DNA from: Actinomyces sp. ZJ308
GTDB lineage: Bacteria > Actinomycetota > Actinomycetes > Actinomycetales > Actinomycetaceae
Assembly: GCF_011752065.1 (NCBI RefSeq)
Contig: NZ_JAAIJY010000004.1
Coordinates: forward strand, 62,001 to 126,000
Direction of reading: 5' to 3'
Length of the DNA: 64,000 nucleotides
Program-made: the position numbers and the translations under genes
In this document: in pieces, positions 45,851 through 57,408 of the stretch
How the letters are laid out: every line of letters begins with the position of its first letter
Position numbering within the stretch: the first letter of the stretch is position 1
The notes under the pieces: model-generated
Told to the model about the DNA's origin: nothing
The model's input: only the letters and a program-made list of their open reading frames with translations
Databases searched by the model: none

Positions 45851-47818
45851 ATGAGCGCTCCACGCACGTCGCCACCCAGTGGGAACGGCCACGCCGGCGA
45901 GCCCGGTCCGGTGGACGAGGTCGTCTCGGCGACCGGCTCGGGCGTCTCGCGGGAGGCCGTTCTCGACGCCGTCTACCGGGAGGCCGGGGTGCCCGACACG
46001 GTGGCCGCGGTGAGCGAGCCCCTGTCCTGCATGCTGCGCGACGCCGCCCGGAACTTCCCCGACCGGGTCGCCCTGGACTTCCTGGGCGCCACCACCACCT
46101 ACTCCCAGCTGGAGACCCAGGTGGCTCGGGCCGCCGAGGCCCTGCGGGGTCTGGGGGTCGGGCGCGGGGACGTCGTCGGGGTCATTCTGCCCAACTGCCC
46201 CCAGCACGTGGTCCTGGCCTATGCGGCCTGGCGCATCGGCGCGATCGTCGCCGAGCACAACCCGCTGGCGCCGGCCGCTCAGCTGCGCGAGCAGTTCCAC
46301 ATCCATCGCGGGCGCGTCATCATCGCCTGGGAGAAGACCCTCGAGCGCCTCGTGGCGGCGGTCGGCTCCCTGGAGGCGGCGGGCCTGGGGGGCCTGAGCG
46401 TGTACTCGGTGGACCTGTCCCGGCACCTGCCGCTGCGCAGCCGTCTGGCTTTGAGGCTGCCGGTGGCCGCGGCCCGCACCCAGCGCCACGAGCTGCGCGG
46501 GAGGGTTCCGGCCGGGGTGCGTTCCTGGGACGACCTGGCGGCGTCGGCCACGCCCCTGGCCACGGGCTTCCCCCTGCCGGGCGTCTCGGACACCGCTGCA
46601 CTGCTGTACACCGGCGGGACCACGGGCACGCCCAAGGCGGTGTGCCTGACGCATGAGAACCTGCGCTCCAACGCCGAGATGTCCCTGGCCTGGGCCTCGC
46701 GCACCACGAGCGTGGGCAAGGAGACCTTCTACGCCGTCCTGCCCTTCTTCCACGCCTTCGGCATGTCCCTGTCGCTGCTGTGCGCGGTGGGGCTGGCCGC
46801 CACCCAGGTGGTGCTGCCCAAGTTCGGGGCGGACCTGGTGCTGGCCGCCTGGAAGCGGCGCCCGGCCACCTTCTTCCCGGGGGTGCCGGTCATGTTCGAC
46901 CGCCTGGTGACCAAGGCCCGGGCCACGGGCGCCGACCTGTCCTCCTGCACGATCGCGGTGTGCGGAGCGGCCCCCAACCCGCTGGCCGTTGCCCAGGCCT
47001 GGGAGGAGGCCACCGGCGGCACGATCATCGAGGGCTACGGCATGACCGAGTCCTCCCCCATCATCCTGGGCAACCCCATCTCGCCGGCGCGCCGCCCCGG
47101 CACCCTGGGGGTGCCCTACCCCTCCACGCAGGTGCGGCTGGTGGATCCCGAGGACGTCGAGCGGGAGGTGGCTCCCGGCGAGGTCGGCGAGCTGCTGGCC
47201 CGCGGTCCGCAGGTCTTCACCGGCTACTGGGACAATCCCGAGGAGAGCGCCGAGGTGCTGCTGCCCGGCGGCTGGCTGCGCACCGGCGACCTGGTGCGCC
47301 AGGAGGAGGACGGCTTCTACGTCATCGCCGACCGCCGCAAGGAGCTCATCATCTCAGGGGGCTTCAACATCTACCCCACGGAGGTGGAGGCGGCGGTGCG
47401 CTCAATGCCGCAGGTGGAGGAGGTCGCCGTCGTCGGGCTGCCGGCCGAGGCCGGCAACGAGTCCGTCGTCGCCGCGATCCTGCCCAAGGAGGGCCAGACC
47501 GTCACCCTGGAGCAGGTGCGCGAGTGGGCGGCCAAGACCCTGTCCAACTACGCCCTGCCGCGTCAGATCGCGATCCTTTCCGAGATGCCCCGATCCCAGA
47601 TCGGCAAGGTCCTGCGCCGCGTGGTGCGCGAGGAGCTCCTGGCGGCCCGGGAGGCGGCCTCCGGTGCCGCGACGGCGGCAGCCGTTTCCATCGTCGAGCA
47701 CTTCCCCGGCAGGAGCGAGCGCAGGGACGACGGCAAGGATGACAGCAGACATGACGGTAGGGACGGCACTAGGAACGACGCCAGGCACGGCAGAGAGAAC
47801 GGCCATGCCCCCCACTGA
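45851..47818 (+). CDS. Long-chain fatty-acid--CoA ligase (first of tandem pair)
   Basis: AMP-forming ligase that activates fatty acids to acyl-CoA. 655 residues from ATG 45851 with GGGGGAAG upstream. ALLYTGGTTGTPKAVCLTHENL (about 250-270) is the ATP/P-loop, EGYGMTESSPIILGNP the adenylate motif, GELLARGPQVFTGYWDNPEE and GWLRTGDLV the hinge region, DRRKELIISGGFNIYPTEVEAAV the C-terminal domain, and RSQIGKVLRRVVRE holds the catalytic Lys. It ends in a 50-residue Asp/Arg/His/Gly tail absent from the next gene. Chain length is not readable. Confidence 0.92.
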   Translation: MSAPRTSPPSGNGHAGEPGPVDEVVSATGSGVSREAVLDAVYREAGVPDTVAAVSEPLSCMLRDAARNFPDRVALDFLGATTTYSQLETQVARAAEALRGLGVGRGDVVGVILPNCPQHVVLAYAAWRIGAIVAEHNPLAPAAQLREQFHIHRGRVIIAWEKTLERLVAAVGSLEAAGLGGLSVYSVDLSRHLPLRSRLALRLPVAAARTQRHELRGRVPAGVRSWDDLAASATPLATGFPLPGVSDTAALLYTGGTTGTPKAVCLTHENLRSNAEMSLAWASRTTSVGKETFYAVLPFFHAFGMSLSLLCAVGLAATQVVLPKFGADLVLAAWKRRPATFFPGVPVMFDRLVTKARATGADLSSCTIAVCGAAPNPLAVAQAWEEATGGTIIEGYGMTESSPIILGNPISPARRPGTLGVPYPSTQVRLVDPEDVEREVAPGEVGELLARGPQVFTGYWDNPEESAEVLLPGGWLRTGDLVRQEEDGFYVIADRRKELIISGGFNIYPTEVEAAVRSMPQVEEVAVVGLPAEAGNESVVAAILPKEGQTVTLEQVREWAAKTLSNYALPRQIAILSEMPRSQIGKVLRRVVREELLAAREAASGAATAAAVSIVEHFPGRSERRDDGKDDSRHDGRDGTRNDARHGRENGHAPH

Positions 47819-47899: not shown

Positions 47900-49690
47900 A
47901 TGAGCAACAGCACCATCGACGCCGGCGCCCGGCCGCAGCAGGCCACCGAGGACTACCACCGCTACCTGCGCCCTCACTACCAGCCGGGGATCCCCGCGGC
48001 GGTCGAGGTGCCCGACGCGCCCCTGAGCGAGCTGCTGGAGACGGCAGCGCGCTTCTACCCCGACCGGGTCGCCATCGACTTCCTGGGCGCCGCGATGACC
48101 TACCGCGAGCTGCTCGAGGCCTCCGAGCGCGCGGCGCAGGTACTGCGCACCTCGGGCGTGCACAAGGGCGACCGGGTGGCCCTCATCATGCCGAACTGCC
48201 CGCAGCACGCCGTCGCGCTCTACGGGGCCCTGCGCGTCGGGGCGATCGTGGCCGAGCACAACCCGCTGGCCCCCGCCGAGGAGATCCGCTCCCAGCTGGA
48301 CGCGCATGGCGCTCAGGTCGTCATCGTGTGGGAGAAGGGCGTCGATCTCGTCTGCGATCCTGGGGATCCTGAGGGTTCTGCGACCCAGGCGGCCTGCGGG
48401 GACCGGCTCGGGGGCCGCACGGTCTTCACCGTGGACCTCTCGGCCGCGATGCCGGTGCGCCTACGCGCCGCGCTGCGTCTGCCGGTGGAGCGGGCCCGCC
48501 GCCAGAGGGCGGCCTTCCGGGCAGGCAGCCTGCCAGGCGGCGTGCGCTCCTGGGACAGGGAGGTGGCCGGCGCCCACCGGATCCCCTCGCGCTTCCCCTA
48601 CCCGGCGGGCTCGGACGTCGCGGTCCTGCTGCACACCGGCGGGACGACCGGTACCCCCAAGGCGGCGATGCTCACCCACCAGAACCTTCGGGCCAATGCC
48701 AACCAGGCCATCGCCTGGGTGCCGATGCTGCACGAGGGCGGGGAGAACTTCCTGTGCCTGCTGCCCTTCTTCCACGCCTTCGGGCTGACCTTCAACCTGT
48801 TCTGCGCGGTGCAGAAGGCCGCCACCCAGGTGATGCTGCCCAGGTTCTCGGTGGACCAGGTGCTCGAGGCGCACGAGCGGCGCCCCTTCACCTTCTTCGT
48901 CGGGGTGCCGGTCATGTTCGAGCGGATCCTCGAGGGCGCCCAGAGAAGGGGCACGAGCCTGCGCACCCTGCGCTACGGGGTGTGCGGGGCCGCCCCGATG
49001 CCTCCGGAGGTCGGTGCCCGCTGGGAGAAGGCGACCGGCGGCTACTTCGTCGAGGGTTACGGCATGACCGAGACGAGCCCGATCGTCGCGGGCACGCCCA
49101 TGGGACCCTCACGGCGGCTCGGCGCCCTGGGCCTGCCGTTCCCCTCCACGGATGTGCGCATCGTCGACCCCGAGGACCCGGACCCGGCCCGGGAGGTTCC
49201 CGACGGCGAGCCGGGCGAGCTGCTAGTGCGCGGCCCCCAGGTCTTCGCCGGCTACTGGGAGGACGAGGAGGCCACCCGGGCCGCGATCCTGCCGGACGGC
49301 TGGCTGCGCACGGGTGACATCGTGCGCCGCGAGGACTCCTTCCTGTGGATGGCCGACCGCAAGCGCGAGCTCATCCTGACCGGCGGCTTCAACGTCTACC
49401 CCAGTCAGGTCGAGGCGGCGATCCGCTCCTTGGAGGGCGTGGCCGACGTCGCCGTCGTGGGGCTGCCCGACGGCGCCAGGGGCGAGCTCGTGTGCGCCGC
49501 CGTCGTCCTGGCCGACGGGGCCGCTGCCGCTTCAGTGACCCTGGAGGCGGTTCGCGAGCACGCCGAGCGGACGGTTCCGCGCTACGCGCTGCCCCGCCGC
49601 TTGGAGATCATCGAGGAGATGCCCCGTTCCCAGATCGGCAAGGTCCTGCGCCGCGTCGTGCGCGAGCGGGTGCTCGCTGCAGGCGGCTGA
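47900..49690 (+). CDS. Long-chain fatty-acid--CoA ligase (second of tandem pair)
   Basis: 596-residue paralogue of the preceding ligase with the same motif set: LLHTGGTTGTPKAAMLTHQNL (about 247), EGYGMTETSPIVAGTP, GELLVRGPQVFAGYWEDEEA, GWLRTGDIV, DRKRELILTGGFNVYPSQVEAAI and RSQIGKVLRRVVRERVL. Long stretches correspond closely, suggesting an old tandem duplication. A short insert (CDPGDPEGSATQAACGD, about 152-170) distinguishes it. The gap to the first gene is 81 nt, so they probably share a transcript and may divide substrates. Confidence 0.92.
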   Translation: MSNSTIDAGARPQQATEDYHRYLRPHYQPGIPAAVEVPDAPLSELLETAARFYPDRVAIDFLGAAMTYRELLEASERAAQVLRTSGVHKGDRVALIMPNCPQHAVALYGALRVGAIVAEHNPLAPAEEIRSQLDAHGAQVVIVWEKGVDLVCDPGDPEGSATQAACGDRLGGRTVFTVDLSAAMPVRLRAALRLPVERARRQRAAFRAGSLPGGVRSWDREVAGAHRIPSRFPYPAGSDVAVLLHTGGTTGTPKAAMLTHQNLRANANQAIAWVPMLHEGGENFLCLLPFFHAFGLTFNLFCAVQKAATQVMLPRFSVDQVLEAHERRPFTFFVGVPVMFERILEGAQRRGTSLRTLRYGVCGAAPMPPEVGARWEKATGGYFVEGYGMTETSPIVAGTPMGPSRRLGALGLPFPSTDVRIVDPEDPDPAREVPDGEPGELLVRGPQVFAGYWEDEEATRAAILPDGWLRTGDIVRREDSFLWMADRKRELILTGGFNVYPSQVEAAIRSLEGVADVAVVGLPDGARGELVCAAVVLADGAAAASVTLEAVREHAERTVPRYALPRRLEIIEEMPRSQIGKVLRRVVRERVLAAGG

Positions 49691-53755: not shown

Positions 53756-54664
53756 ATGACGACCACCACGCCCACCGAGGCCCCGACAACGTCTCCCGAG
53801 AACTCCACGGCAGACTCGGAGCACTCAGAGTATTCGTCGAACCGCACCGCGCTCGTCACCGGAGCCTCCTCCGGCATCGGCGAGGACACCGCCCGCAGAC
53901 TCCAGGCGCTGGGCTACACCGTCTACGGCGCGGCCCGCCGCATCGACCGCCTCCAGGCCCTGGCCGCCGACGGCATCCGCCCGTTGGCCATGGACGTCAC
54001 CGACGACGCCTCGATGAGCGCCGGCGTGGACCGCATCCTTGCCGAGACCGGCCGCATCGACGTCCTGGTCAACAACGCCGGCTACGGCTCCTACGGAGCC
54101 ATCGAGGACGTCCCGATCGACGAAGCCCGCCGCCAGTTCGAGGTCAATGTCTTCGGCCTGGCCCGCCTGACCCAGCTGGTGACCCCGCACATGCGCACCC
54201 AGGGATCGGGCACCATCATCAACATCTCCTCCATGGGCGGAAAGCTGACCACGCCGCTGGGCGGCTGGTACCACGCCACCAAGTACGCCGTCGAGTCCCT
54301 CAGTGACGCGCTGCGCATGGAACTGCGGCCCTTCGGGATCGACGTCGTCGTGGTCGAGCCCGGCGGGATCCGCACCGAGTGGGCCTCGATCGCCGCCGAC
54401 CACCTGGAGGCCACCGCCGAGGGCAGCGCCTACGCCGACCAGATCAAGGCCGTGGCCGGAGCCATGCGCAGCGAGTCCAACCAGCGGCGCTACTCCCCTC
54501 CCGAGGTCATCGCCCGCACCGTCGGCAAGATCGTCACCGCCCGCCACCCGCGGACCCACTACGCGGTGGGCTTCATGGCCAAGCCGCTCATCGCCGCGCG
54601 TCGTGTCCTGCCCGACCGCACCTTCGACCACCTCATCGGCGCCGCCTTCGGGATGCTGCGCTGA
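53756..54664 (+). CDS. Short-chain dehydrogenase/reductase
   Basis: 302 residues, classical NAD(P)-dependent SDR. TALVTGASSGIGEDTARRLQALGYTVYGAARR (about 31-60) is the cofactor loop; DVLVNNAGYGSYGAIEDV, IINISSMGGK (catalytic Ser) and YHATKYAVESLSDALRMEL (Tyr and Lys, about 171) complete the active site. The Arg after GAAR favours NADP. The first 28 residues are a Thr/Ser/Glu-rich extension. Probably repressed by the adjacent TetR. The substrate is unknown. The 32-bp direct repeat begins 7 nt beyond its stop. Confidence 0.93.
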   Translation: MTTTTPTEAPTTSPENSTADSEHSEYSSNRTALVTGASSGIGEDTARRLQALGYTVYGAARRIDRLQALAADGIRPLAMDVTDDASMSAGVDRILAETGRIDVLVNNAGYGSYGAIEDVPIDEARRQFEVNVFGLARLTQLVTPHMRTQGSGTIINISSMGGKLTTPLGGWYHATKYAVESLSDALRMELRPFGIDVVVVEPGGIRTEWASIAADHLEATAEGSAYADQIKAVAGAMRSESNQRRYSPPEVIARTVGKIVTARHPRTHYAVGFMAKPLIAARRVLPDRTFDHLIGAAFGMLR

Positions 54665-54671
54665 TCGAGGT

Positions 54672-54703
54672 CGGCACGGACCGCGGGCACCGGGGCCGAC
54701 GGC
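54672..54703 (+). repeat. Direct repeat, left copy (32 bp)
   Basis: Begins CGGCACGGACCGCGGG and matches 55755-55786 at 31 of 32 positions (one G/A change). It lies just after the SDR stop and bounds a patch of gene fragments. Confidence 0.8.
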
Positions 54704-54748
54704 CTGCCGCGCCTGCGCACGTATGCCCGCATCTTCGGCACGGATGCG

Positions 54749-55039
54749 GTGACGAAGAACCAGGCCGCCTACCTCGACGCCCGCCCGCATCGGAACGTTG
54801 AGGACGCGACCCGCACAGCAAACCGAGCCCACGCCGAAATCGAGGCGTTACGCGCACTCACCCCCACCGAGGCACTTCGACGCATCAAGCAGTCCCGTGC
54901 CATCGAGCAGACGCAGCGCAATGCCACCGACCGCGCTGTCGAGGAACGTCACCGCCAACTCCAATCCTCGCGCGCCCTGACTCAAGACCGCGGGCGGGCC
55001 GTCCCTGGACAGACGACCGCAGCACCAGCGTGCTCGTAG
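54749..55039 (+). CDS. Hypothetical protein, perhaps a C-terminal remnant
   Basis: A 96-codon frame (GTG start) with a helical, Arg/Glu/Ala-rich product: AYLDARPHRNVEDATRTANRAHAEIEALRALTPTEALRRIKQSRAIEQTQRNATDRAVEERHRQLQ. The reading frame upstream (LPRLRTYARIFGTDAVTKNQ) is equally protein-like back to the SDR stop, so the visible piece may be the tail of a larger gene whose front is lost. The style resembles coiled tails of plasmid or conjugation proteins, but no family is assigned. Confidence 0.4.
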   Translation: MTKNQAAYLDARPHRNVEDATRTANRAHAEIEALRALTPTEALRRIKQSRAIEQTQRNATDRAVEERHRQLQSSRALTQDRGRAVPGQTTAAPACS

Positions 55040-55050
55040 ACTTCGAACTC

Positions 55051-55092
55051 ATAGGTGCATAGTCATATAGGTGTGCAGTAGACTATGTGGCA
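55051..55092 (+). promoter_or_regulatory. AT-rich operator-like segment
   Basis: CATAGTC (55058-55064) and GACTATG (55081-55087) are an inverted pair, and ATAGGTG occurs twice (55051-55057 and 55067-55073). It directly precedes an ATG (55093). It resembles the autoregulatory leader of a PadR-type gene. Confidence 0.4.
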
Positions 55093-55290
55093 TGGAGTTG
55101 AAGCGCGCAATCCTCGGGCTGCTGTCGACCCGCTCCGCGCGGGGAAGACCTTCGGTCTGCTGGGAACGAACGGCGCCGGTAAGACCACGACCGTGGAGAT
55201 GCCGGCAGGTCTCCGCCGGCCCACCCAGGGCAGCGTCCGGCTCTTGGGGCTGAATCCGTTCAGCGACCTCATGCGGTTCTTGATCCTCGG
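55093..55290 (+). pseudogene. Broken fusion: regulator start joined to ABC ATPase fragment
   Basis: From ATG 55093 the frame reads [15 protein letters not shown], like the start of a PadR-family regulator. Within 50 nt the sequence becomes, in another frame, an ABC-2-type ATPase: [38 protein letters not shown], with an intact Walker A. The ATPase match stops after about 40 residues, with no Q-loop, signature or Walker B. This looks like deletion-joined remnants of a regulator-ABC transporter locus. Confidence 0.55.
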
Positions 55291-55340
55291 CATCCGTGCG
55301 CATATCCTCGCAATGCAGTGGCTCGATGAAAGGAAACCAC

Positions 55341-55724
55341 ATGACCACGATCGCTCTTATCGTCGTGCTCGCACTGCTGGCGGCGCTCGCCGTCGGGCAG
55401 ATCCTCGCCGCGTCGGGCCTTCCCTTAGGTCGTTTCGCGTGGGGCGGCAAGCACCGCGTTCTGCCGCGTGGGCTCCGCGTCGCCAGTGCGGTGTCGGTGC
55501 TGGTGTACGCGGGGTTGGCGGCCCTGCTGCTCAGCCGTGCGGGTATTCTCCCGGCCGGAGACAGTGCAGCGGTGATCGTCTTGACCTGGGTGGCGTTCGC
55601 GTTCTTCGCCGCGAGCGTGGCGCTCAACGCGATCTCGCGCAGCCCCGCCGAACGCTGGACGATGACACCGACCAGCCTCCTGCTGGCAGCAGCAACGCTC
55701 GTCATCGCCCTGGGCGGAGGGTAA
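55341..55724 (+). CDS. Small integral membrane protein, unknown
   Basis: 127 residues from ATG 55341 with AGGAAA upstream. Four hydrophobic segments are visible (about 3-24, 45-65, 73-95, 106-125) with short loops ([41 protein letters not shown]). No family is assigned. It is complete, with a good ribosome site, and may be the one intact gene of the repeat-bounded patch. Confidence 0.6.
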
Positions 55725-55754
55725 CGGTGTGCTCGTAGTGGCCTCTGACATGTG

Positions 55755-55786
55755 CGGCACGGACCACGGGCACCGGGGCCGACGGC
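55755..55786 (+). repeat. Direct repeat, right copy (32 bp)
   Basis: Begins CGGCACGGACCACGGG; 31 of 32 positions identical to 54672-54703. Confidence 0.8.
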
Positions 55787-55846
55787 GTACTGCGGGCAGC
55801 AGTCGTCGTCGGCCCCTCACGTGACTGGGCCGAATGGCGGCCGACG

Positions 55847-57280
55847 TCAGTCGACCGGCCCCACGAGGATGCGGGCGCGCTTCTGGTCCACCAACCAGGC
55901 GGCCATCTCCTGGACCTCCTCAGGGGTCACGGACTCCAGACGGCGCAGGTTGTCCTCCATGGAGCGCAGGCGCCCGGTGACGACCTCGGCGCGCCCCAGG
56001 CGCCCCATGCGGGCCAGGGAGTCCTCCCCGCCGAGCACCATGGCGCCGCGCAGCTGGCCCCGGGCCCGCGCCATCTCACGGTCGGTGACGCCGTGCTCGG
56101 CGAGCTTCTCGAACTCGCCGATCATGACGGTGCTCACCTCGTCGACGTCGCCGGGGGCGCAGCCGGCGTAGAGCCCGAAGGCGCCGGAACCGGCGTAGGA
56201 GGTGTCGAAGGCGTAGGTGGTGTAGGCCAGGCCCCGCTTTTCGCGCACCTCCTGGAACAGGCGCGAGGACATGCCTCCGCCCAGGATGGTGGTGAGCACG
56301 CTCATGGCCCAGCGCCGTTCATCGCGCACCGCGATGCCCTGGCAGGTCAGGTACAGGTGGGTCTGCTCGCTCTCGCGCGCAACGGTGATGTCATGGACGT
56401 CCAGCGCCGTGAAGGGCTCGATCTCGAAGCGGCGCTCGCGCGGGACCGCGTCGGCAGAGGCGTCCCAGCCGGCCGCGGCCAGGTCGGCGGCCACGCGCTC
56501 GCAGACCTCGTCGTGGTCGACGGCGCCGGCGGCCGCCACCACGAGGGTGTCGGAGGCGTAGGTGCGCTTGTAGTGCTCCCACACGGCGTCGCGCGGTACG
56601 GCGGTGACGGTCTCGTTGGTGCCACCGATGGGGCGGCCCAGCGGCGTGTCCTCGCCGAAGGCGGCGCGGGCGAAGGCCTCCTGGGCGACGTCGGCGGGGT
56701 CGTCTGCGGCGTCGGCGAGCTCGGAGACGATGACGCCGCGCTCGGTCTCGACGTCGGTGGGCTCCAGGAGCGAGGAGGTCACCATGTCGGCGAGCACGTC
56801 GAGGGCCTCCATGCCATCGGGGGCGAGCACGCGGGCGTAGTAGGAGGTGTGCTCCTTGGAGGTGGCGGCGTTGGACTCGCCACCGATCATGTCGAAGGCC
56901 TCGGCGATGTCGTGGGCGTCGCGCGTGGCGGTGCCCTTGAACAGCAGGTGCTCCAGGAAGTGGGTGGAGCCCTCCTGGCCGGGCGCCTCGTCCCGGCTGC
57001 CGACGCCGAACCACATGCCGATCGAGGCCGAGCGCAGGCCCGGCACGGACTCGGTGATGACGCGTACCCCTCCGGGCAGGACGGAGCGGCGGGTGAGCGC
57101 ACCGTCGTCGTGCAGGGTGAGCTCAGTGCCGTCGCGGCCGGGCCGCCCGCGCCGCAGCTCCACCTCGGAGTAGTCGGTCGAGCTCAAGGTCTCCCCCGCT
57201 GCCGGGTTCGAAGCGAGGTCTGCTGAGGATGTGGGTGCCACCGACCCTGCTGAGCCGGTTCGCGTGTCTGGGTTGGTCAC
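55847..57280 (-). CDS. M16-family zinc metalloprotease (insulinase/PqqL type)
   Basis: 477 residues from GTG 57280. STHFLEHLLFKGT (about 102-114) holds the inverted zinc motif HxxEH; the third ligand Glu should lie in ETERGVIVSELADAADDP (about 180). The inactive C-terminal M16 half follows (LTCQGIAVRDERRWAMSVLTTILGGGMSSRLFQEVREKRGLAYTTYAF). Encoded just downstream of pnp, a linkage common in Gram-positive bacteria. The first 45 residues are a Ser/Thr-rich leader. No signal peptide; cytosolic peptide degradation is likely. Confidence 0.92.
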   Translation of the reverse strand: MTNPDTRTGSAGSVAPTSSADLASNPAAGETLSSTDYSEVELRRGRPGRDGTELTLHDDGALTRRSVLPGGVRVITESVPGLRSASIGMWFGVGSRDEAPGQEGSTHFLEHLLFKGTATRDAHDIAEAFDMIGGESNAATSKEHTSYYARVLAPDGMEALDVLADMVTSSLLEPTDVETERGVIVSELADAADDPADVAQEAFARAAFGEDTPLGRPIGGTNETVTAVPRDAVWEHYKRTYASDTLVVAAAGAVDHDEVCERVAADLAAAGWDASADAVPRERRFEIEPFTALDVHDITVARESEQTHLYLTCQGIAVRDERRWAMSVLTTILGGGMSSRLFQEVREKRGLAYTTYAFDTSYAGSGAFGLYAGCAPGDVDEVSTVMIGEFEKLAEHGVTDREMARARGQLRGAMVLGGEDSLARMGRLGRAEVVTGRLRSMEDNLRRLESVTPEEVQEMAAWLVDQKRARILVGPVD

Positions 57281-57367: not shown

Positions 57368-57408
57368 CGGTGTCCCCGCCCGGTCCAGCGGACCGGGCGG
57401 GGACACCG
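57368..57408 (-). terminator. Strong hairpin after pnp
   Basis: A perfect 19-bp stem (57368-57386 with 57390-57408) and a 3-nt loop, about 40 nt beyond the pnp stop and before the M16 gene. It probably ends or attenuates the pnp transcript. Confidence 0.8.

Follow-up and report, generated by a model that had tools for sequence, protein, structure and literature searches.

Introduction

Foreign DNA that has settled in a bacterial chromosome is commonly recognised by the marks left at its edges. Decayed integrative conjugative elements of Actinobacteria are typified by a relaxase fragment, flanking direct repeats, and an empty site in a relative, while insertion sequences and transposons are not known to produce target duplications as long as 32 bp. 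Template-switch insertions of the MMBIR type carry donor pieces ordered at microhomologies, filler bases, and, through a return of synthesis upstream, a flanking duplication. Homology-facilitated illegitimate recombination has been put to the test in E. coli, where the duplications of target sequence that were sequenced measured 109-950 bp and were ascribed by the authors to single crossovers involving a circular molecule (PMC3240628). B. subtilis transformants are reported often to carry several discontinuous donor segments close together (PMC13344027).

Here we describe a patch of gene fragments in an Actinomyces genome that shares features with several of these systems. It lies within a 64-kb stretch of DNA, referred to below as the window, and is bounded by direct repeats for which the initial annotation had offered two readings, namely att-like integration by site-specific recombination or a spacer left after deletion of a larger element. 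Comparison with relatives leads us to regard the patch, on balance, as captured debris.

A Repeat-Bounded Patch Between Two Native Genes

Two copies of a 32-bp sequence, identical at 31 of 32 positions and both on the plus strand, occupy 54672-54703 and 55755-55786 (1083 bp from start to start) and enclose 1,051 bp (54704-55754), which confirms both the repeat pair that the initial annotation had placed at 54672 and 55755 and its estimate of about 1.05 kb between them. The neighbours, which it had called housekeeping-like, are by Pfam an SDR-family oxidoreductase gene on the left (53756-54664, plus strand; adh_short, 1e-48), which has an M16 neighbour in the 12 relatives measured, and an M16 peptidase gene on the right (55847-57280, minus strand; Peptidase_M16, 2e-35; Peptidase_M16_C, 1e-36), and both are native. 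Copy 1 is native spacer and ends in the left arm of a terminator-like hairpin whose right arm is not adjacent; copy 2 runs on into native spacer and aligns through to the empty site of a relative, G045.

No match to the repeat with up to three mismatches arose in 100 shuffles of the window. At the same tolerance the whole genome (3.28 Mb, 80 contigs) holds exactly these two copies and no copy on the opposite strand, so the repeat is not scattered, a possibility that the genome-wide search had been proposed to address. Neither an integrase or other recombinase nor a transposase was recognised in the patch (by reading of the ORF list and Pfam searches of three patch frames), in keeping with the earlier remark that no recombinase remains, and ARAGORN returned no tRNA gene in the 64-kb window. 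Elsewhere in the window, the neighbouring stretches 46182-47646 and 48183-49680, which lie some 2 kb from one another, match in three blocks at 72-79%, the pattern that a duplicated gene pair would give.

Composition of the Patch

The enclosed sequence had been described as a set of unrelated fragments. Instead, all but its last nine bases match three pieces of an insert carried by another Actinomyces genome, G009, in the same order and orientation (54696-55139 at 93.0% identity, 55132-55295 at 97.0%, and 55285-55745 at 94.4%). From left to right, all on the plus strand, the patch comprises the 3' end of a TrwC-type relaxase-helicase gene (traA-like) without a start (54698-55015); a 5' fragment of a padR regulator gene (55092-55139), recognised by alignment to an intact 180-aa PadR of G009 (Pfam PadR, 4e-13); a piece of an ABC transporter ATPase gene that holds its Walker-A part and passes into the opening codons of a second padR (55140-55287; Pfam ABC_tran, 1e-07); and orf127, a complete ORF of 127 codons (55341-55724), membrane-like by reading and without a Pfam match. 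Since the relaxase fragment alone matched no Pfam or NCBIfam profile, its identity comes by way of a protein of G127 (1154 aa when counted from the ATG; TrwC and AAA (AAA_30) domains), to the end of which it is 57% identical.

In Brevibacterium linens (L066), padR is followed by frames for an ABC ATPase and a membrane protein, both named by reading, and the PadR is 81% identical to that of G009; this order is likely the ancestral form of the patch pieces. Such a PadR-ABC ATPase-permease cluster represents the source type of the window's padR and ABC pieces, which in comparison are fragments, the permease being absent. The ABC and PadR parts share one frame in G009, and G148 has the stretch too: at L033:3631-4362 of G009 and L059:3331-4221 of G148, a single open frame joins the N-terminus of an ABC ATPase to a PadR domain. 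The stretch is common to two genera within a 95.7% alignment, and it could represent either the scar of a deletion or a fusion that is expressed.

A functional role for orf127 was considered and set aside: the frame is open, but its dN/dS is about 1 (1.05 against G009, 0.96 against G148, and 0.76 against G149), which gives no clear sign of selection. Between G149 and G148 the ratio is 0.34, from 11 differences.

The Spacer Hairpin

The distance between the SDR and M16 stop codons, extrapolated from alignments, was measured in the window and 12 relatives, G038 (which has no SDR gene) and G040 (in which the SDR end was not found) being left out. It amounts to 86-123 bp in six genomes and 249-253 bp in five; the window has 1,182 bp and G009 5,224 bp. 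In the six short spacers a hairpin, GGGGCCGACGRCG...CGTCGTCGGCCCC, can be seen by eye between the convergent SDR and M16 genes, less perfect in some. The window retains this hairpin whole on the right side only (55775-55818, no strand assigned), and the 32-bp repeat is native spacer through most of the left hairpin arm. Folding of 55745-55830 (86 nt, right repeat copy plus downstream arm) yields -47.5 kcal/mol (z -2.61), comparable folding of the G045 hairpin yields -44.4 kcal/mol (z -2.95), and the left copy alone (54662-54722) does not stand out (z 0.12). From its position between convergent genes the hairpin is presumably a terminator; a simple terminator scan returned none, as the hairpin lacks a T-run behind it. 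The window contains another strong spacer hairpin 3' of the next gene, a perfect 19-bp inverted repeat with three bases between its arms (57368-57408).

Five of the 13 measured spacers contain an unrelated small repeat element whose start lies no more than a few bases past GGGGCCRAYGMC, which is the same hairpin arm, and these five could derive from a single insertion. The genomes with such a copy inside the SDR-M16 hairpin are G018, G014, G031, G020, and G021. The family, about 120-170 bp long and partly palindromic with ends like TTGGTGTCCAGATCGGAGACAAAGG (L040:978-1150 and the same spacer in G014, G031, G020, and G021), gives 23 matches in G018, 21 in G014, 16 in G031, 17 in G020, and 10 in G021, some of the matches in these five being the two strands of one place, as well as nine in G023, four in G045, and one each in G000 (the window genome) and G009.

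Junctions

Three of the four joins carry microhomology. At J1 (54696-54703), where the native hairpin arm meets the relaxase gene, the shared bases are CCGACG (6 bp; 7 of 8 bp); J2 (55134-55139) shares the 6 bp TCCGCG, and about 650 bp of G009 sequence is missing there; J3 (55288-55295) shares the 8 bp CGGCATCC (9 bp between two places in G009), with about 440 bp of G009 missing. J4 (55746-55754), between the tail of orf127 and repeat copy 2, consists of nine unmatched bases, TGACATGTG, without microhomology and without another copy in the window; all four joins are read on the plus strand. With G009 as a stand-in for the actual donor, random joins in its segment show at least 6 bp of microhomology in 0.27% of draws and at least 8 bp in 0.06%, about 0.02% of draws being self-matches.

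The left edge of the patch falls inside traA, given that the similarity between the TraA sequences of G009 and G127 reaches some 58 bp beyond this edge, across a stop and a gap of three residues. The stretches held in common with G009 differ among G000, G038, G148, and G149, so that the edges are not the same at each occurrence.

Empty and Enlarged Sites in Relatives

The window segment was searched in 49 genomes of the genus, 48 of which gave a match somewhere; stretches of 13 genomes were retrieved. No relative found is closer than G045, which matches the flanks of the window at 96.3% identity next to the SDR gene and at 95.2% next to the M16 gene. There the two flanks meet directly with one repeat copy, their alignments overlapping by 30 bp. 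This is the empty site that the initial annotation had suggested looking for, and its single repeat copy identifies the patch as an insertion. The two window copies differ at one of 32 sites, and from the G045 copy at four (copy 1) and three (copy 2); as they are closer to each other than to the G045 copy, the duplication looks, tentatively from these 32 sites, younger than the window-G045 split, thus a gain in the window lineage rather than a loss in G045.

At the same place, G009 carries a 5.2-kb insert of the same material as the patch; from a 100% protein match we infer that this genome is Actinomyces gerencseriae DSM 6844 and its contig C2 NZ_AUBN01000003.1. The earlier idea of a spacer left after a larger element therefore holds in the sense of a remnant of something larger. 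The more specific expectation of a larger element between the same repeats held for the locus but not for the repeats: in G009, the one larger version available, neither a repeat copy nor the native hairpin was found in the insert (by BLAST and by whole-spacer alignment, in which 47 to 266 of 300 shuffles did as well as the real comparisons). A scan of nine proteins of the G009 insert recognised no integrase, and the only mobility enzymes that it gave are insertion-sequence transposases (an IS256-type transposase and a DDE remnant). A candidate remnant of the native hairpin beside traA in G009, the string GATCGAGGCC shared with G045, was rejected, as the same bases encode TraA residues that match G127 (IEASA versus IEATA); its targeted G009-G045 alignment was equalled by 16 of 2,000 shuffles, for a region picked after looking.

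The three Actinomyces genomes with a high-identity orf127 (the window's, G009, and G038) all have it beside the 3' end of the M16 gene in the same orientation. In G038 (L035:1700-2780), a dapB-like gene (by reading) lies close to the M16 gene, with padR, ABC, and orf127 debris in between and no SDR gene; from this genome, the TetR-SDR pair itself may be variable at the locus.

Lateral Origin of the Material

At an E-value of 1e-5 or better, orf127 occurs in nine of 213 genomes of the family. Five of these match at 81-100%, namely the window's genome, G009, G038 (residues 14-90 only), G148, and G149, and four further genomes match at 34-36%, as does another locus of the genome from which the window comes. 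G148 and G149 belong to another genus than the window and are probably Schaalia georgiae DSM 6843 and Pauljensenia hongkongensis HKU8, respectively; G038 appears to be an Actinomyces metagenome assembly. Within the genus, orf127 reaches at least 81% identity in three of 49 genomes, so the fragments are not conserved across the genus, and the refuting outcome named in the initial annotation did not arise here.

G009 and G148 share an alignment of 2,004 columns at 95.7% DNA identity, the frame of ABC and second padR included; by comparison, the M16 proteins of the window and G148 are only 53% identical, and those of the window and G009 88%. A segment common to two genera at such identity has moved laterally, and, judged by sequence divergence, the material reached at least one of these lineages after their split. 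Between the window and G009, orf127 has a dS of 0.047 and a dN of 0.049, and the traA piece a dS of 0.104 and a dN of 0.068; the dS of the adjoining SDR gene is 0.228. In the other genus the segment lies at other loci with other boundaries, and G149 and G038 show other internal gaps, so that loss by deletion is common in this segment.

The relaxase fragment of G009 has counterparts in six of 213 family genomes, close ones in G000, G009, and G148 and more distant ones in G127, G097, and G173 (58, 42, and 38%). Searches of wider collections gave short matches of the patch to plasmids, confined to the ABC part (five records, 4-9% of the query), and none to phages; the G009 relaxase fragment matched nothing among plasmids by protein, and none of its 21 pattern hits among viral contigs was confirmed.

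Origin of the Patch

Taken together, these observations lead us to favour, with somewhat more confidence than doubt, an origin by illegitimate, microhomology-guided capture of foreign debris that duplicated 32 bp of the target and left the repeats as its scar. The template switching, the succession of steps, and the donor are proposed as follows. Laterally acquired and already decaying DNA, with the 3' part of a relaxase gene of conjugative type, a cluster of padR and ABC-transporter genes, and the short membrane-like orf127, would have been at hand when synthesis or strand joining at the strong spacer hairpin left the native template at CCGACG. Copying would have gone on along incoming DNA resembling the G009 segment, with two skips at microhomologies of 6 and 8-9 bp, made then or as later deletions, before the native chromosome was rejoined 32 bp upstream of the point of departure. 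As such a return duplicates 32 bp, the flanking direct repeats would be a scar and not attachment sites, and no element enzyme is needed to make them.

The junctions are of the kind expected from illegitimate insertion, with microhomology or filler and without element ends (6 bp at J1, 6 bp at J2, 8-9 bp at J3, and nine unmatched bases at J4). The site, however, is recurrent, being the same in three Actinomyces carriers, though with differing edges. J4, with its nine unmatched bases and no microhomology, also speaks against this reading, and, as the internal joins J2 and J3 could be ordinary later deletions, a single event is only putative. Timing is likewise uncertain, since the dS of the traA fragment to G009 (0.104) exceeds that of the SDR gene to G045 (0.078). 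Ku was found in none of three genomes (G000, G045, and G009) and in one of 14 controls, which speaks against classical end joining and leaves Ku-independent joining; a ComEC-type protein was found in all three, which says little about DNA uptake, as 10 of 14 controls have one as well.

Site-specific integration, as initially proposed, fares less well. It predicts element ends at the repeats, whereas here the left edge lies inside the relaxase gene, three junctions show microhomology, no integrase was recognised, and no repeats were found in the G009 version. Its fullest form, in which a tyrosine or serine recombinase inserted an integrative conjugative element at the hairpin, creating attL and attR, and internal deletions then took the integrase and nearly all else, is rather unlikely in our estimation. 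The TrwC-type relaxase fragment, direct repeats at both edges of the patch, an empty site with one copy, the locus shared by the three Actinomyces carriers found, and the larger version in G009 are all as that history would have them. On the other hand, with the left boundary inside traA, the original left end would at best have been lost, and a later deletion would determine how long the repeat is on that side; the edges are not the element's own ends, the same each time, and the other genus carries the segment at other loci with other boundaries. Neither the patch nor the nine scanned proteins of the G009 insert (insertion-sequence transposases only) yielded a recognisable integrase or excisionase gene, and the single larger version is not enclosed by the repeats. 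A target-site duplication by an insertion sequence or transposon since lost would accord with the insertion-sequence remains in the G009 insert (IS256-type transposase and DDE remnant), but no transposase was recognised in the patch and 32 bp exceeds the duplications that such elements are known to make, so that we give it almost no weight.

That three carriers share one locus and orientation disfavours blind independent insertions, and their divergence opposes vertical descent, leaving allelic transfer via the flanking genes or a hotspot. Descent from a common ancestor of the window, G009, and G038, with loss in G045 and others, would explain the shared locus and orientation, yet it is very improbable: the apparently unconstrained orf127 (dS 0.047) is more conserved than the adjoining SDR gene (dS 0.228), unless later exchange homogenised the patch, and the repeat copies are closer to each other than to that of G045. 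Blind capture in turn fits only if pairing with the flanking genes guided the incoming DNA or if the spacer acts as a hotspot. Pairing of a relative's G009-like SDR-insert-M16 locus via the flanking genes, followed by illegitimate joining inside the spacer, is a more specific form of the capture that we favour, namely homology-facilitated illegitimate recombination. It agrees with the common locus and orientation in the window, G009, and G038, with an orf127 divergence far below that of the adjoining gene, and with the occurrence of target duplications when such events were studied in E. coli (PMC3240628). Neither the SDR gene nor the first 0.8 kb of the M16 gene, however, contains an imported G009-like tract: in 150-base windows, identity to G045 is 88-99% (SDR) and 84-99% (M16), and identity to G009 is 73-94% (SDR) and 76-93% (first 0.8 kb of M16). 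G038, moreover, has no SDR gene beside its patch. In our view this specific form is unlikely.

A hotspot is about as doubtful. In this case the SDR-M16 hairpin of Actinomyces would be a site of breakage or stalling at which template-switch copying occurs while the DNA is paired through the flanking genes; it is favoured by the unrelated small repeat in the same hairpin arm of five of the 13 spacers. If true, several species would have received the same foreign debris at one address, each with its own microhomology scars, while in other genomes the same arm would have taken in an unrelated small repeat. Capture at microhomologies is a known kind of event, and the repeated use of this spacer is its mildly interesting part, marking one Actinomyces spacer as having taken up foreign DNA more than once. 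More generally, mere gene debris can come to be surrounded by flanking direct repeats and to have an empty site in a relative, the usual signs of an integrated mobile element, and the position of the edges within donor genes can tell captured debris from such an element.

Comparison with Known Systems

The patch resembles the decayed integrative conjugative elements of Actinobacteria in its relaxase fragment, its flanking direct repeats, and a relative with an empty site. It differs from them in having no recognised integrase, no tRNA gene in the window, a left edge inside a gene, and a larger version in which no repeats were found. With homology-facilitated or double illegitimate recombination, known from Acinetobacter, Pseudomonas stutzeri, and E. 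coli, it shares the joining of foreign DNA at little or no homology and, for E. coli, the target duplication; the differences are that the patch is natural and not experimental, that its homologous anchor is putative, and that its duplication measures 32 bp as against 109-950 bp (PMC3240628). Lastly, the patch is like template-switch insertions of the MMBIR type in its ordered pieces at microhomologies, its filler, and its flanking duplication, with the difference that its origin in a single event is putative.
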